NCBI RefSeq assembly: GCF_014840935.1
Contig: NZ_CP062005.1
Span: 2,108,001-2,172,000 of the forward strand
Length of the DNA stretch: 64,000 nt
Origin: Halomonas sp. YLGW01
GTDB taxonomy: Bacteria; Pseudomonadota; Gammaproteobacteria; Pseudomonadales; Halomonadaceae
Direction: 5' to 3'
Made by a program: the position numbers and the translations under genes. Shown piece by piece: positions 4,822 through 29,379 of this stretch (position 1 is the stretch's first letter; every line of letters starts with the position of its first letter). The notes under the pieces are model-generated. The model saw only the letters and a list, made by a program, of their open reading frames with translations. It was not told the DNA's origin and did no database searches.

Positions 4822-5912
<1,091 letters not shown>

Positions 5913-6069
5913 TGCCCTGTGAGCGCGCAGCCTCGATGTCGAGACCATGGCCTCCGGCTATTGATCTGATTGGGGAACCGGCATTTGCCAGCGGCCTCGG
6001 CGGCCGCTAACATCAGCCGACTATGCTGAAACAGCACGCGTTCAACGCGTAATGCAACGGGAGAATTCC

Positions 6070-6393
6070 ATGGCCAACAACGTCGATGTCACCACCGCCA
6101 ACTTTGAGCAGGAAGTCCTCAAGGCGGACATGCCTGTTCTGCTGAAGTTCTGGGCCCCCTGGTGCGGCCCCTGCAAGATGATGGCGCCGGTGGTGGACGA
6201 AGTCGCCGATGAGCGTGCCGACAATGTCAAGGTCGTGAGCGTGAACGTAGATGACGCACCGGACATTGCCGCCGAGCACGGCGTTCGCGGCGTACCGACC
6301 GTGATGCTCTTCAAGTCTGGCGCCAAGGTGGCCTCGCTGGTCGGCGCCCAGTCCAAGTCACAGCTCGCGCAGTTCATCGATCAGAACGCCTGA
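6070..6393 (+). CDS. trxA: Thioredoxin 1
   Basis: The 107-residue protein is a complete thioredoxin with the redox-active WCGPC motif at about residues 31-35 and the cis-proline segment VRGVPTVMLF. It is the general cytosolic disulfide reductant and serves PAPS reductase, encoded close by. The ATG at 6070 follows CGGGAGAATTCC and gives the usual N-terminus; an in-frame ATG at 6052 is less well placed. A strong hairpin follows at 6423-6451, so trxA is probably monocistronic. Confidence 0.96.
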   Translation: MANNVDVTTANFEQEVLKADMPVLLKFWAPWCGPCKMMAPVVDEVADERADNVKVVSVNVDDAPDIAAEHGVRGVPTVMLFKSGAKVASLVGAQSKSQLAQFIDQNA

Positions 6394-22829: not shown

Positions 22830-23414
22830 TCAACCACGTTGCAGAAAGGTGGCCAGCAGCTCGTGACCCTGCCGGGTGAGGATCGATTCGGGGTGGAACT
22901 GCACCCCCTCGATATCCAGTGTCTTGTGCCTAAGGCCCATGATCAGCCCCGGGGTGACGTCGTCGTCATCGACCCAGGCGGTGACCTCGAGGCAGTCCGG
23001 CACGCTATCCTCGGCCACCACCAGCGAATGATAGCGGGTCACTTCGAGAGGATTCTCGAGGCCGGTGAACACGCCGGTATTCAGGTGACGCACCTTGGAG
23101 GTCTTGCCGTGCATCACCTGGGGGGCGCGCACCACCTGGCCGCCGAACACCTGACCGATGGCCTGGTGGCCCAGGCAGATGCCGAGGATCGGCACGCGCC
23201 CGGCAAAATGGCGAATCACCTCAAGCGAAATGCCGGCTTCGGTGGGCGTGCAGGGCCCCGGCGAGATCACGATATGGCCCGGTGCCATGGCCTCGATCTC
23301 TTCGATCGTAATGGCATCGTTGCGGTGGGTCTCGACCTCGGCTCCGAGCTCGGCGAGGTACTGCACCACGTTGTAAGTAAAGCTGTCGTAATTGTCCAAC
23401 ATGAGAACGGACAT
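22830..23414 (-). CDS. trpG: Anthranilate synthase component II (glutamine amidotransferase)
   Basis: The 194-residue class I amidotransferase opens with [20 protein letters not shown] and has the catalytic cysteine in [12 protein letters not shown] (C80) and the His-Glu pair in VQFHPESIL. It supplies ammonia to TrpE and, since no separate pabA is seen, may also serve PabB (inference). It heads trpG-trpD-trpC but is not adjacent to trpE: two signalling genes and a terminator lie between, so the trio needs its own promoter in 23415-23533. Confidence 0.95.
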
Positions 23415-23533: not shown

Positions 23534-23556
23534 AATGCCGCCCTGACGGCGGCATT
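23534..23556 (-). terminator. Terminator of the KaiC-like/GGDEF-EAL unit
   Basis: A 9-base-pair stem (AATGCCGCC at 23534-23542, GGCGGCATT at 23548-23556, loop CTGAC) is flanked on its left by AAAA, which reads as a T-run on the minus strand. It therefore ends transcripts coming leftwards from the signalling genes and isolates trpGDC. Confidence 0.85.
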
Positions 23557-23696: not shown

Positions 23697-26027
23697 CTAT
23701 CGCTCATCGCCCCGCGGTACGCCCTGCCGAACGAGGCCGGGAATCTCGTTGCCCGGTCGCGCCGCGCTCAACCAGAAGCCCTGGCCGAGCTGACAGCCGA
23801 TGTCGGCAAGCTGGTTCTTCTGCTGCTCTGTCTCGATCCCCTCGGCCACGGTGGCCAACGAGAGGTTGCGCGCCAGGTCCGTGATCGCACGGACGATGCT
23901 TCCTCCGGCGCCCTCCTCTTCCAGGCGGTCGACAAACATCTTGTCGATCTTGAGGGTATCCAGCGGCATCAGTTGCAGCCGGGCCAGCGAGGAATAGCCC
24001 TGGCCGAAGTCATCCAGCGACAGGCGAAACCCCTCTTCACTCAGCCAGTGCATCGCCTCGGCCACCTGCTCGGGGGAGCGCATCAGGGTATCTTCGGTCA
24101 ACTCCAGCGACCACCAGCCCGGCTGCGTCTCTTCTGACGTGATGATCTCATGGATGCGTGCCGCCGCCCGCTTGCCCTGCAACTGACTCACGGACAGGTT
24201 GACCCCCATCCAGACCTCGACCCCCTCGCGGCGCCAGGCGGCCAGCTGCCGAGCCGCGGTCTTCAGCACCCAGTCTCCCAGGTCGCCGATCAACCCTAGC
24301 TCCTCGGCCAAGGGGATGAAGGTCCCGGGGGATATCATGCTGCCGTCGGCCTTTTTCCACCGGATCAAGGCCTCGACCCCCACAATGCTGCCGCTGGCGA
24401 TGTCCCAGATCGGCTGATAGTGCAGAATGAACTGGTCGGCGGCCAGGGCGTGATAGAGCTCCGCCTCCAGGGTCAAGCGTTGCTGTCGACCACTGCCGAG
24501 GTCTTGGGAATAGAACACCAGTGGCGCCCCGGAGTCCTTGGCCTGGTACATGGCCATATCGGCCTGCTCGATCACGAGCTCCACATCGTCACCAGAGTAG
24601 GGAAACAGACTGACACCTATGCTCGCGCCGAGATGATGCTGGTAGCCTTCGATGTCGAACGGCTTGTGCAGGGCCCGGTGCACCCTGCCGGCGAGGGCTT
24701 CGGCGCCGCGGGTCAGACGCTTGACGCCATCGTCCTCGTTCGGTGCTGGCTGACCGGGTTCCTCGAGCATGACGACAATGAATTCATCGCCGCCCTGCCG
24801 GCCCACCAGGTCGCCTTGTCGAAGCGTGTCCTGGATGCGCCTGGCCACCCGCTTGAGCACCTCATCGCCGGCCGCATGGCCCAGCGCATCATTGATCAGC
24901 TTGAAGTCATTGAGATCGATGAACAGCACGGCAGCACTGCGCCCCTTGCCGTCACCGGCCGCGACCCGCTTGAGGCATTGCAGCAGGGAGCGCCGGTTGG
25001 GCAAGGCGGTGAGGGAATCCTTGTAGGCGAGGCGCCAAATTTCCCGGTCCTTGAGCTCACGCTCACGCCACATCCGCACCTTGTCCACCCCCAGCGCGAG
25101 ATTGTCGGCCAGGCGCTCCAGCAGGCCATTCTCCTCGTCGTCGAAGTCACCCCGATGCCGGGAATACACGGCCAGGACAGTATGGGGTCCATAGTGGGTG
25201 CGCAGGGGCAGCAGGATCACACTGTTCAACCCCCAGGCCTCCATCTGTGGCCACCAGGGCGCCATGCGGGTATCCGCCATCAGGTCGGAAACGACCTGGG
25301 GACGACCCGTCGAGAGAGCCTTACCGATGGCGGCGCCATCCCATGGGCTATCGCCCAAGCGCACCTCGAGACCATCCGTATAGCCCGCCGCGGCCCCCGA
25401 CACCGCGGCGATGGCAATGCTTGCGAGGGACGCGGTCCCCTCGTCGAGTCGTCCCACCCAGGCCAGGTCATACCCCTCGGACTGGGTGATCATCCGGCAC
25501 ACGGCGCTTATCAGTCCGTCCTCGTCTGATTCCCGCAGCATCACCTCATTGCAGGCGTTCAGGGTCTTCAAGGCACGGCTCACCCCATCAAACGCCTGGC
25601 GAGTCACGTCGTGCGCTCGCGACTGCTGCTGCGACAACTCCCTGAGACGCAACAGGTTGCGGACTCGGGCCCGGATCTCGGGCGCAGTGGTCGGCAGGCG
25701 CAGCACGTCTTCCACGGCCTGCCCGAGCTCTTGCTCGAGGGCATCGGACGAGACGCGCTGCCCCGGTACCAGCATCAGCACCGGCAAGATCACCGGATGC
25801 GCCTGTGCGCGCAGGCGGCTGACCAGCGCCCGCTGACGCTGCAGCAGCGTGGGGTCGAGGATCAGCAGGTCGGCCGCGCCGCTGAAGCTTGCGCCCTGCT
25901 CGAGCCCGACGGGAGAGAGGCTCTCGTCGGCACCGAGGGTCTGGACCAGCAGATCACGATCCGCGCTGGCCTGCAGGGCAATCTCGACGCGCATGGGCCG
26001 GCGGCCTGCCATGCTGCTGGCCGTCAC
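23697..26027 (-). CDS. REC-like/GAF/GGDEF/EAL cyclic-di-GMP turnover protein
   Basis: The 776-residue protein has four parts: a receiver-like fold (about 13-125) lacking a clear phosphorylation pocket beyond D58, a GAF domain (about 150-320), a GGDEF domain (about 335-510) and an EAL domain (about 520-770). GGDEF is intact at 412-416 and preceded by the RxxD inhibitory site RQGD (403-406). The EAL domain keeps EAL (552-554), NLS (610-612), ELTE (642-645), DDFGQGYSS (672-680), LKID (692-695) and AEGIET (728-733), so both synthesis and hydrolysis of cyclic-di-GMP look possible. The start is a GTG overlapping the stop of the KaiC-like gene (GTGA); in-frame ATGs at 26012 and 25994 are alternatives. 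No membrane segment is seen. Confidence 0.88.
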   Translation of the reverse strand: MTASSMAGRRPMRVEIALQASADRDLLVQTLGADESLSPVGLEQGASFSGAADLLILDPTLLQRQRALVSRLRAQAHPVILPVLMLVPGQRVSSDALEQELGQAVEDVLRLPTTAPEIRARVRNLLRLRELSQQQSRAHDVTRQAFDGVSRALKTLNACNEVMLRESDEDGLISAVCRMITQSEGYDLAWVGRLDEGTASLASIAIAAVSGAAAGYTDGLEVRLGDSPWDGAAIGKALSTGRPQVVSDLMADTRMAPWWPQMEAWGLNSVILLPLRTHYGPHTVLAVYSRHRGDFDDEENGLLERLADNLALGVDKVRMWRERELKDREIWRLAYKDSLTALPNRRSLLQCLKRVAAGDGKGRSAAVLFIDLNDFKLINDALGHAAGDEVLKRVARRIQDTLRQGDLVGRQGGDEFIVVMLEEPGQPAPNEDDGVKRLTRGAEALAGRVHRALHKPFDIEGYQHHLGASIGVSLFPYSGDDVELVIEQADMAMYQAKDSGAPLVFYSQDLGSGRQQRLTLEAELYHALAADQFILHYQPIWDIASGSIVGVEALIRWKKADGSMISPGTFIPLAEELGLIGDLGDWVLKTAARQLAAWRREGVEVWMGVNLSVSQLQGKRAAARIHEIITSEETQPGWWSLELTEDTLMRSPEQVAEAMHWLSEEGFRLSLDDFGQGYSSLARLQLMPLDTLKIDKMFVDRLEEEGAGGSIVRAITDLARNLSLATVAEGIETEQQKNQLADIGCQLGQGFWLSAARPGNEIPGLVRQGVPRGDER

Positions 26028-27487
26028 GAGCCGGCCACTGGGGACGCCTCGCGGGAGGCCAGCTCGGGAGCTCCGCGCAGGATGCCTCGCAAGCCGGTCA
26101 AGGGCTCACCGATCTTCAGCCCCTCGGAGGTGATATCGAACTCACGCAGCGTCTTCTCGAAGTCGCCCGTGCGCTTCTTCAGCATGCCGATGGTCTTGCG
26201 CATTTCGCCATCGAATTCGATGTAGCGCAGGATCAGGACGGCATCGGCCAGGTAGCTGATGCCGAGCTCGGTCACACGAATCTCCGCGCCGGCAATCGAG
26301 CCGACCTCGTTGACGAGCAGCACGGTGACGCCCATGTTGGCCAGGTACCGGCACAGGGCATGGGCATGCGTCACCACATCCTCGCCCCGCACCGACTGCC
26401 GATAGCCCGAGAGGCTATCGATCATCACCATCGTGGCGCCCCGCTCCTCGACCTCCCGGCGGACCCGCCAGGCGAATTCATCCGGTGAGTAGCGCAGTGG
26501 CTCGACTTCCTCCACCCCGAGCGAATCGTCCTGGATCATCTGATCCAGCGGGATGCCGACCTGTTTACAGCGATGACTGATCGTCGCCAGGCTTTCCTCG
26601 AAACTGAAGATGACCGACCGTTCCCCACGGCTCGCCGCCTCCCGCATGAACTGCACCCCCAGCGAGGTCTTGCCCACCCCCGTGGGGCCCGAGATGATCG
26701 TCACCGTCCCCTTGCCGAGGCCGCCACCGGAGAGGGCATCCAGCTCGGCGACCCCTGAAGGAATCGACTCGGCCACGAAGGGCTGACCGTGTTCGCTCGG
26801 CACGAGGCGCTGGAAGACGCTCATGCCGCGACCATCCAAGCGAAAGGTATGCCGGCCTTCGGCAAAGCCGGAGCCACGAAACTTGACCACGGAGAGAGTC
26901 CGCCCGGCCTGCGTGCGGTCGAGCTGCAGGATCCCATCGCCCAGATACTGCAGGTCCTCGTCGGCCTGAGACCCCTGCTCCGAGGTGAACAGCAGGGTCG
27001 ACCCGGCCGTCGTCAGGTATTCGAGCAGCGCCATCACCTGCCTGCGGAATTGGAAGGTGTCGGGCACCAGGTGTCGAAACTGGCTGAGCGCATCGATGAA
27101 GACCCGCGCCGGCGGCCCCTCGGGAAAGGCCGCCTCAATACGCGAGCGGATGTCGGGCGGCTCCGCCTCCCAGGGTTCGAGCAGGGTATAGGTCGAGGAC
27201 TCGCTCGTTTGTGCCGTCGGCGAGAGATCCAGGGTGACTACCCCCTCGAGCGTCATGCCGATGCTTCGCGCATCGCTGCGGATATTGCGATCCGCCTCGC
27301 CGAGACTGACCAGCAGGGCCTGCTCTCCCGGCGGCTTGGCGGAAAGAAAGTGAAGACCAAGCGTCGTCTTGCCCGTCCCCGGGCCTCCGGACACCAGGTA
27401 GGAGCGTCCGGGCAGGAAGCCTCCATGAAGGATCCTCTCCAGCCCGGGAATATCGGTCGTGATGCGTGACGGCTGTGCGTCTGTCAT
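26024..27487 (-). CDS. KaiC-like double-domain ATPase
   Basis: The 487-residue protein consists of two tandem RecA-like KaiC domains. The first has Walker A GGPGTGKTT (34-42) and the second GPTGVGKTS (267-275). The catalytic glutamate pair of clock KaiC is GE (63-64) in the first domain but complete EE (297-298) in the second. Near the end, RVTELGISYLADAVLILRYIE-type sequence aligns with the autophosphorylation loop of cyanobacterial KaiC, giving Ser411-Tyr412 where the clock protein has Ser-Thr. No kaiA or kaiB is in the window. AGGGGGAGTC precedes the ATG at 27487; an in-frame upstream ATG at 27550 and GTG at 27571 are possible. It is translationally coupled to the downstream cyclic-di-GMP gene. 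Function in timekeeping is not implied; many KaiC homologues are signalling ATPases. Confidence 0.87.
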   Translation of the reverse strand: MTDAQPSRITTDIPGLERILHGGFLPGRSYLVSGGPGTGKTTLGLHFLSAKPPGEQALLVSLGEADRNIRSDARSIGMTLEGVVTLDLSPTAQTSESSTYTLLEPWEAEPPDIRSRIEAAFPEGPPARVFIDALSQFRHLVPDTFQFRRQVMALLEYLTTAGSTLLFTSEQGSQADEDLQYLGDGILQLDRTQAGRTLSVVKFRGSGFAEGRHTFRLDGRGMSVFQRLVPSEHGQPFVAESIPSGVAELDALSGGGLGKGTVTIISGPTGVGKTSLGVQFMREAASRGERSVIFSFEESLATISHRCKQVGIPLDQMIQDDSLGVEEVEPLRYSPDEFAWRVRREVEERGATMVMIDSLSGYRQSVRGEDVVTHAHALCRYLANMGVTVLLVNEVGSIAGAEIRVTELGISYLADAVLILRYIEFDGEMRKTIGMLKKRTGDFEKTLREFDITSEGLKIGEPLTGLRGILRGAPELASREASPVAGS

Positions 27488-27810
27488 GACTCCCCCTAAC
27501 GTGATCTCTATTGCCTCAACAAGCGCTAATGAGTCAGCGATACCCTCCATCGCTCGGGCCAGCCCGCTCACTGGGGCGGCGAGCCGGCGATGTCGGGCAG
27601 GCAGTCAATCCGTGGCCAGCGACTGCGATCACCATCCTCAAGCTATCAAGAAAAAGCTTACCTAATATTAAATAAAACTCATATTTTACGATTGTCGCCG
27701 AGCCGGCGCAGACGCCATCCAGGTAGGGAGCATCGAGGCGGGCCGAAGGTCACGCGGCGAGCCTCGCCCGAAGATCCGGCAATGGCCATCGGCGAGGCTC
27801 GGTTGCGTGC
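27488..27810. other. Intergenic region between trpE and the KaiC-like gene
   Basis: This 323-base gap holds an AT-rich tract at about 27648-27690 that stands out from its GC-rich setting and probably contains the promoter of the KaiC-like gene, leaving a leader of roughly 150 bases. Immediately after the trpE stop is an 11-base inverted repeat CGAGCCTCGCC (27758-27768) with GGCGAGGCTCG (27791-27801); it lacks a T-run, so it is a weak terminator candidate. No further gene is evident. Confidence 0.5.
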
Positions 27811-29301
27811 CTACTCCAGGTTATCCAGGCCGCGCTCGGCCATGGCCACGGCGCGGAACAGGGCACGCCCCTTGTTGAGGGTCTCCTGCCACTCGAGCTC
27901 GGGCACCGAATCGGCGACCACCCCGGCACCCGCCTGAACGTGCAGCTGGCCGTCCTTGATGACGGCGGTACGGATGGCGATGGCGGTATCCATGTTGCCA
28001 TGCCAGGAGAGGTAGCCCACGGCGCCGGAATAGATGCCGCGCTTGACCGGCTCGAGTTCGTCGATGATCTCCATGGCGCGGATCTTCGGCGCCCCTGACA
28101 GGGTCCCCGCCGGGAAGGTGGCACGCAGCACGTCCATCGCCGACAGCCCCGGTTTCAGCTGCCCGGTGACATTGGAGACGATATGCATGACGTGGGAATA
28201 ACGCTCCACCGCCATCTGGTCGGTGACCCTGACCGTGCCGGTCTGGCTGATCCGGCCCACGTCGTTGCGGCCCAGGTCGATCAGCATCAGGTGCTCGGCG
28301 ATCTCCTTGGGGTCGGCCATCAGATCGGCTTCCAGCGCCTGATCCTCGGCCTCGGTGGCGCCGCGCACCCGCGTACCGGCGATCGGACGCACGGTGACCT
28401 CGCCATCCTCCAGACGCGTCAGGATCTCCGGCGAGGAGCCCACCACATGATGATCCTCGAGGTTGAAGAAGAACATGTAGGGCGAGGGATTGAGGCTGCG
28501 CAGCGCCCGGTACAGATCGAGCGGAGGCGCCTGATAGGGAATCGACATGCGCTGTGAGGGCACGCACTGCATGACGTCGCCGGCCAGCACGTACTCCTTG
28601 ATCTTCTCTACCGCGGCCTTGAAACCGTCTTCGGTGAAGCCGGAGCTGAAATGGCCTTCCTCGACGGCGCGTCTCCCCGTGCCGGGGCTCTGGGTGGCGA
28701 TGGTGGCGCTGCGCAGTTGAATCTCGAGGCGCTCGAGGCGCTCGCGCGCCATGGCATAGGCGCCCTCGATGGCCGGGTCGACGTGGGTCCACAGGGTCAG
28801 GCGACCGGACAGGTTGTCGAACACCACCAGGTCATCGCAGACCATCAGCAGGATGTCCGGCACGCCCAGAGGATCGGGCTTGTCGACGCCGGCGAGGCGA
28901 GGCTCGGCGTAGCGTACGGTGTCGTAGCCGAAGTAGCCGACCAGGCCACCGTCGAAGCGTGGCTGATCATCGAGACGCGGCACCTTGAAGCGCTGCTGGA
29001 ATTGTTCGATCCATGCCAGCGGATCCTCGACCCGGCTGGCGCCCAGCACCTCGTCATCCTTGAGATGACGCACCTCATAGCCGCGCACCTCGATACGCTC
29101 GCGGCTGGGCAGCCCGATGATCGAGTAGCGGCCCCACTTCTCGCCGCCCTGCACCGACTCGAGCAGGAAGGTCCAGGGCGCGTTGGCCAGCTTCAGGTAA
29201 GTCGACAGCGGAGTGTCGAGATCGGCGAGGACCTCGCGGGTCACCGGAATGCGGTTGTAGCCGGCATCGGCCAGCTCATTGAAGCGTTCGGGAGTCATCA
29301 T
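27811..29301 (-). CDS. trpE: Anthranilate synthase component I
   Basis: The 496-residue enzyme converts chorismate and ammonia to anthranilate. It has the tryptophan feedback site [19 protein letters not shown] near residue 45, [12 protein letters not shown] (alanine where PabB has lysine), [12 protein letters not shown], and [20 protein letters not shown] region followed by GAGVVADS. Three in-frame ATGs occur at 29310, 29301 and 29298; AAGGA lies only two bases before the first, so 29301 with about eleven bases of spacing is preferred. It stands apart from trpGDC and follows a candidate leader peptide and hairpin. Confidence 0.95.
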
Positions 29302-29379
29302 GCCCGGCATCTTCCTTCAAGAATGAATCACTTAAGCGGGGAGTCTTACACAGGGGCGAGCCTAGCGCACTAAACAGAA

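Follow-up and report, generated by a model that had tools for sequence, protein, structure and literature searches.

The window analysed here is a 64,000-nucleotide stretch of Halomonas sp. YLGW01 (contig NZ_CP062005.1, positions 2,108,001 to 2,172,000), taken from a genome of 3.45 Mb. On its minus strand, a gene for a KaiC-like ATPase runs directly into a gene for a protein with a receiver-like N-terminal domain followed by GAF, GGDEF and EAL domains. A preliminary description, made from the sequence alone, had singled out the double-domain kaiC gene, its GTGA overlap with the four-domain partner and a terminator closing the pair, and all of these were borne out by open reading frames, Pfam matches and a terminator scan. 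In window positions, the features are:

26024 to 27487, minus strand: KaiC-like ATPase with double RecA/KaiC domain (Pfam KaiC, E 1.5e-66; best match to solved KaiC structures, E 1.9e-54)
26252 to 26257, minus strand: codons for S411-Y412, aligned to the Ser-Thr pair of solved KaiC
26024 to 26027, minus strand: GTGA overlap of kaiC stop and partner start, from coding-strand bases read directly
23697 to 26027, minus strand: PsR-GAF-GGDEF-EAL protein, 776 amino acids (open reading frame list, Pfam and alignment)
25617 to 26000, minus strand: pseudo-receiver (PsR) domain with a long last helix, candidate docking domain for KaiC (homologue profile and fold model)
25086 to 25529, minus strand: GAF domain, ligand unassigned (Pfam GAF_2, E 1.7e-14)
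24528 to 25028, minus strand: GGDEF domain (GGDEF motif at 24780 to 24794; RxxD I-site intact)
23763 to 24464, minus strand: EAL phosphodiesterase domain (Pfam; ten examined positions intact)
23534 to 23556, minus strand: intrinsic terminator after the pair (9-pair stem, ~140 bases beyond the partner stop)

The kaiC frame extends from an ATG at 27487 to a stop at 26024 and encodes 487 amino acids; the purine-rich sequence AGGGGGAG lies directly 5' of the ATG, and an alternative frame of 515 amino acids with a GTG start is likewise open. The partner gene starts with GTG at 26027 and stops at 23697, and Pfam places GAF_2, GGDEF and EAL at residues 167-314, 334-500 and 522-755 of its product. The terminator scan returned three sites against 1.7 expected in shuffled sequence, and the site at 23556-23534 has the longest stem.

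The kaiC gene and its partner are a real, conserved signalling unit, an operon-like pair. Searching 275 Halomonadaceae genomes (the family sample) with the KaiC protein identified 41 places at a limit of E 1e-20: 29 belong to the query clade (E 1.5e-70 or better, spread over 22 genomes), one is a remnant and 11 are members of a distant group with ~25% identity. We searched the same genomes independently with a profile (A1) of 25 sequences of the partner's N-terminal domain. This search yielded 29 places at E 3.2e-41 or better; the next value was 1.3e-11, below which gap ordinary receivers were taken to begin. By coordinates, the 29 KaiC and 29 PsR places coincide one to one, and in every case PsR follows KaiC on the same strand. 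Five further pairs were found outside the family (G450, G581, G560, G496 and G655) in a class sample of 369 genomes, giving a total of 34. The pair is therefore neither restricted to one strain nor usually unlinked, either of which the preliminary description would have taken as a sign of chance adjacency.

How readily could such neighbours arise by luck? The window's genome has 23 EAL places above cut-off which, if it holds ~3200 genes (our estimate), would put an EAL gene in ~0.7% of slots. Set against this figure, the 32 loci fetched besides the window (one of them, L099, with two pairs) represent 19 genomic settings when grouped by the flanking proteins they share, and the partner or its start is present in each (L092 is cut by a contig end). 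With 23 EAL places in that genome, luck cannot account for the 29:29 linkage; we rejected chance adjacency on that linkage and the 19 settings, and give it a negligible probability. It is harder to dismiss the idea that the two genes merely travel together and serve related responses while their proteins never touch, since the query clade is patchily distributed (22 of the 275 genomes) and occupies many sites. This explanation is nevertheless clearly unlikely, given that linkage is mutual, that the genes often overlap, that both KaiC have partners of their own in the seven genomes that carry two modules, and that a domain of the same PsR family lies beside archaeal KaiC, as described below. 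Distances between KaiC proteins correlate with those between their partners (r 0.98 over 27 pairs, 0 of 5000 permutations; L088 and L101, where the partner is split, L092, at a contig end, and L113, L114, L109 and L099b, where KaiC is incomplete, were left out), which is weak evidence because any co-inherited operon would yield the same.

The 34 pairs form two clades. In clade A (24 pairs), KaiC is at least 51% identical to that of the window and the partner has the arrangement PsR-GAF-GGDEF-EAL. In clade B (10 pairs), KaiC is ~39-42% identical, and the partner consists of PsR, a degenerate GGDEF and EAL. Conservation of the gene overlap was proposed as a test in the preliminary description. 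Clade A genes overlap by 4 bases in 13 pairs, by 11 or 14 in eight and by 1 in two, and lie 4 bases apart in one (these counts, 23 of 24 overlapping, depend on the start codons we chose). In clade B, a gene of ~130 amino acids separates KaiC from its partner in at least five of the 10 pairs. Three of these short intervening genes were scanned and gave sub-threshold receiver-family matches. On three haloarchaeal plasmids (L163, L171 and L173), KaiC overlaps a single-domain receiver gene that by eye resembles the short gene of clade B.

The output domains were compared in 31 complete partners; L088 and L101 (two open reading frames) and L092 (contig end) were left out. Ten examined EAL positions (E-A-L, N, E, DD, K, E and Q), residues with catalytic roles in EAL domains, are identical in all 31. 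All 21 clade A partners have an intact GGDEF motif and RxxD I-site; none of the 10 from clade B does. Hence, hydrolysis of cyclic di-GMP (c-di-GMP) is the probable constant activity of the partner. Intact synthase and phosphodiesterase motifs, as previously described for the window, are both present there, and the EAL half of that description extends to every complete partner, while the GGDEF half does not extend to 10 of the 31. The GAF domain is missing from seven aligned clade B partners, and no GAF match was found in the three of these that were scanned. We consequently rejected GAF as a constant docking part.

A Pfam scan of the partner's N-terminus gave no match at E 0.01. A profile of 25 homologues matched receivers of solved structure, with PleD the best at E 5e-12. 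We modelled the domain alone with AlphaFold2 from five input sequences; one of five models folded, with a predicted local distance difference test score (pLDDT) of 80.5 (others 37-45), and it has REC topology with a long last helix at residues 115-147. Foldseek matches to this model were mostly receivers at the top, with modest scores (E 2.3e-5, template modelling score ~0.6). A model of the full-length partner (pLDDT 63) was not used, as its PsR part was unfolded at <50. The profile match and the fold model agree with the earlier recognition of the N-terminus as REC-like. Asp58 is kept in all 31 partners, as are two prolines and two arginines; the set of residues that serves phosphorylation in canonical receivers is incomplete in them, with no acidic pair at positions 19-22 and with Leu, Ile, Thr or Ser instead of Lys before Pro112. 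We call the domain a pseudo-receiver, since it is predicted to keep the REC fold and to have lost the phosphotransfer residues other than Asp.

Relatives of the window's KaiC were found on 245 plasmid records, the best of which are haloarchaeal (up to 52% identity over 99% of the query). We took the best 12 of 19 archaeal records listed, ranked by similarity, a sample that is biased accordingly. In a tree of 57 KaiC proteins, clade A and 13 archaeal KaiC group together with support of 99.7/100 (in this sample biased to the best plasmid matches), and ten proteobacterial KaiC with downstream histidine kinases form a separate group (100/100). The gene after the 13 archaeal kaiC encodes a histidine kinase in seven cases (including L168, annotated just as a PAS protein), a single receiver in four and neither, as annotated, in two; in one of the latter (L167), an open stretch downstream of KaiC matches PsR at 69 bits. 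The PsR profile matched the N-terminus of all seven kinases, at 96, 86, 83, 77, 70, 60 and 50 bits per domain, and profile-profile comparison gave 99.7% (E 3.3e-27). The background of the profile reaches 46 bits in Halomonadaceae outside the 29 pairs and 54 bits per domain for receivers elsewhere in the class, so six of the seven kinase domains (60-96 bits) lie above it. When the window's PsR alone was compared with the plasmids by tblastn at 1e-4, no match was found; the profile does detect PsR on the seven archaeal kinases. On the Acaryochloris plasmid pMB01 (L166, 3223-7065), a KaiC 47% identical to that of the window has histidine kinases on both sides, with PsR matches of 90 and 39 bits, the second being within background.

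PsR is the best candidate for the surface that docks on KaiC, since its family also occurs on the histidine kinases encoded next to haloarchaeal KaiC. The preliminary description had named the REC-like domain or GAF for this role, of which only the former stands. The haloarchaeal arrangement (Halorussus, Haladaptatus, Haloferax and other plasmids), in which KaiC lies beside PAS/HAMP kinases or single receivers, thus has the same KaiC clade as clade A and the same PsR family downstream, and differs in that its output is a histidine kinase where the Halomonas pair has GGDEF-EAL. The N-domains of proteobacterial kinases are a different matter: ten kinases beside proteobacterial KaiC gave no match to the PsR profile at E 10, and when nine of their N-domains were combined into a profile, comparison with PsR reached 27%, such that their kinship with PsR is not supported.

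The KaiC protein has two KaiC/RecA domains (two stretches in the Pfam match), each with a Walker A motif. Tree and residue comparisons kept 29 of the 34 KaiC sequences (L113, L114, L109, L099b and L088 were left out). The catalytic acidic pair of the second domain (CII) is EE in the window, and in all 21 clade A sequences compared it consists of E or D followed by E; in the pair of the first domain (CI), the same 21 keep the second Glu and have Gly in first place. At the phosphorylation pair, which we take to be S431/T432 in clock numbering, the window has Ser-Tyr in place of the clock Ser-Thr, with Ser in 27 and Tyr in 28 of the 29 clade A and B sequences. The absence of kaiB noted earlier extends to the whole genome, where we found 0 matches at E 0.001, with a positive control in Synechococcus elongatus (KaiA was not searched for). 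Retention of the CII acidic pair and of a Ser-Tyr pair at the phosphorylation sites would fit a KaiC whose phosphorylation cycles set a day-night rhythm of c-di-GMP, and PMC3164672 proposes an hourglass for pairs of KaiC and histidine kinase. We regard such a circadian or hourglass output as highly unlikely in the present case, since KaiB was not found in the genome, the second site is Tyr and not Thr, and the rhythm itself is purely predicted. For the cyanobacterial oscillator, c-di-GMP had no direct effect in vitro according to the available portion of PMC13001216.

We favour the view, with a probability of about 0.62, that the two genes form a unit in which the state of KaiC governs, via PsR, what the partner does, chiefly its breakdown of c-di-GMP. 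The KaiC ring would change shape with its nucleotide or phosphorylation state, and PsR would dock on KaiC instead of accepting phosphate from a kinase. Binding might then be relayed along the long helix that follows PsR to the GAF-GGDEF-EAL part, where c-di-GMP hydrolysis by EAL would be the main activity altered, perhaps joined in clade A by GGDEF synthesis or GTP sensing. GAF could add a second input, and the outcome would be a c-di-GMP level set in an ATP- or time-dependent manner.

The signal might instead run the other way, with the partner sensing a ligand through GAF, or c-di-GMP through GGDEF/EAL, and regulating KaiC as KaiA and CikA do in the clock. The degenerate GGDEF of clade B could be a nucleotide sensor, and PMC12632262, in the part available, describes pseudo-receivers in CikA and KaiA and reports that a ligand on the KaiA pseudo-receiver alters stimulation of KaiC. 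However, invariant EAL residues are unexpected in a mere sensor, and the same PsR family carries a histidine kinase in haloarchaea; we therefore consider this direction rather unlikely.

Several observations weigh against control of the partner by KaiC. The evidence consists of sequence and linkage, so that complex, binding and activity are all predicted. The first catalytic glutamate of CI is Gly or Gln in all 29 clade A and B sequences compared, which leaves a single glutamate of the pair. KaiC is truncated in two loci (263 amino acids with a 775-residue partner in L113, and 236 with 691 in L114), and G221 has a KaiC remnant with four stops (L157, ~5653-6352) and no partner found. Conversely, G055 encodes a PsR-GAF-GGDEF-EAL protein (L150, 5696-7999; PsR E 2.6e-21) with no KaiC within the fetched 12 kb, and in G625 a similar PsR sits on a PAS protein, with no KaiC match within the fetched 12 kb. 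The PsR of the archaeal kinase in L168 (50 bits) falls within the receiver background of up to 54. The KaiC tree does not unite clades A and B with support: clade B falls outside the group of clade A and archaeal sequences, at an unsupported place (77.5/30). The PsR tree is too poorly supported to decide how the clades are related. The EAL domains of both clades, together with that of G055, do group against 20 other EAL domains of the window's genome (91.2/96), which suggests that the c-di-GMP partner arose once; the KaiC tree is at odds with this. The G055 protein may show the adaptor reused for a different input.

We had taken the distant KaiC group (~25% identity, ~570 amino acids) as a negative control. 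It came out positive: an EAL gene lies beside KaiC, upstream, in 11 of 11 family places, and in the class sample in three of four (G450, G560 and G435 have one, G475 does not). The upstream EAL proteins carry HAMP, PAS or GAF sensors in three scanned, and a KaiB-like gene lies downstream of KaiC in six of eight family loci fetched wide, four of these above the Pfam cut-off. Typical loci (L203-L206 and L216-L219) contain a sensor-GGDEF-EAL gene, a KaiC with a tail that by eye looks like a coiled coil and often the KaiB-like gene. We note this group as a second KaiC-to-c-di-GMP arrangement in Halomonadaceae, and count its EAL neighbours in favour of control of the partner by KaiC. Taken together, an EAL gene can be seen next to KaiC at 39 of the 41 family places; of the other two, the one in G156 lies where the contig ends after PsR, and the last is the remnant. 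In 21 less related KaiC loci of the class (with G435 counted among them), 1.5 kb flanks revealed GGDEF and EAL in four, GGDEF alone in two, histidine-kinase-like matches in five and none of these in 10. EAL coupling is thus not general for KaiC, since just four of the 21 show GGDEF and EAL.

The suggestion that the pairing is undescribed was too strong. Occurrence of KaiC next to GGDEF/EAL has been known since 2011: PMC3164672 states that almost all kaiC genes of non-cyanobacterial bacteria lie close to genes for signalling proteins, GGDEF/EAL among them, groups kaiC contexts, and gives an account of a KaiC that has no KaiB and precedes a kinase whose N-domain is receiver-like. The KaiC-PsR-GGDEF-EAL arrangement is a variant. 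Within the parts available, PMC5520375, PMC10132064 and PMC3899966 contain nothing on it, and no title or abstract opening among the matches listed describes such a unit, subscription papers being mostly outside the search. Ramlibacter Rta_04330/04340 (Nt_HK, RtaNt domain), also in PMC3164672, resembles the pair in joining a KaiB-free KaiC to a signalling enzyme with a receiver-like N-domain, and Nt_HK systems differ in having a histidine kinase output and an N-domain that does not match PsR; we infer that the ten proteobacterial kinases we fetched belong to Nt_HK. The kaiC-kaiB clusters with a GGDEF/EAL gene in that source likewise place KaiC beside GGDEF-EAL. The distant group is of this kind, and differs from the pair in its KaiB-like gene (in six of eight loci), its KaiC of ~25% identity and its upstream EAL gene. 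Cyanobacterial KaiABC with SasA/CikA shares the double KaiC domain, the CII acidic pair and pseudo-receivers (in CikA and KaiA), whereas the Halomonas pair lacks KaiB and a kinase output and has Tyr at the second phosphosite. BcsE, described in the portion of PMC7439463 available as a RecA-like NTPase, REC* and GGDEF* in one chain, also combines a KaiC/RecA-like fold with receiver-like and GGDEF-like domains and acts in c-di-GMP signalling; its domains are degenerate and on a single chain, it serves cellulose secretion, and we liken the two by description only.

In the window, the pair lies within what are presumably trp genes (trpE, trpG, trpD and trpC, named from the sequence alone). Two of these genes flank it:

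27811 to 29310, minus strand: trpE, upstream flank of the insertion (same order in sister genomes)
22830 to 23414, minus strand: trpG, downstream flank of the insertion (trpE-trpG spacing in the genus)

The order on the minus strand is trpE, kaiC, the PsR-GAF-GGDEF-EAL gene, the terminator, trpG, trpD and trpC. Among seven genomes of the genus, the pair lies between trpE and trpG in four (G000, G002, G005 and G006) and is absent from that site in three (G003, G001 and G004), where trpE and trpG are separated by 152, 152 and 167 bases. Because the same two genes flank the pair in the former and lie 152-167 bases apart in the latter, the pair represents additional DNA at this position. The partner is split into two open reading frames in L088 (G006) and L101 (G002) and whole in sister genomes, owing to a frameshift or an assembly error. 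Upstream of kaiC, G+C content dips to 42-50% at 27600-27749, against ~67-71% around it; a promoter scan gave no sigma-70-like site in this stretch.

According to the available part of PMC5847659, archaea are without GGDEF/EAL response regulators, and KaiC is treated there as a hub. Given that PsR of this family is also found on the kinases next to haloarchaeal KaiC, we tentatively suggest that KaiC and PsR may together be a portable timing or energy-sensing hub of haloarchaea, a cyanobacterium and halophilic bacteria, with an exchangeable output. This output would be phosphorelay kinases in archaea and c-di-GMP hydrolysis in Halomonadaceae, where KaiC could drive a c-di-GMP switch or hourglass without KaiB. 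The idea of an archaeal KaiC hub reportedly goes back to Makarova 2017. To our knowledge, the signals and surfaces used by KaiC homologues outside the cyanobacterial clock are largely open. As the two genes are strictly linked and the enzymatic output, c-di-GMP breakdown, can be measured, such a unit makes KaiC signalling testable in vitro. If control of the partner by KaiC is true, it would, as far as we know, be the first mechanism to connect a KaiC ATPase with c-di-GMP, and it would tie an archaeal KaiC hub to a bacterial second messenger through a swapped output domain.

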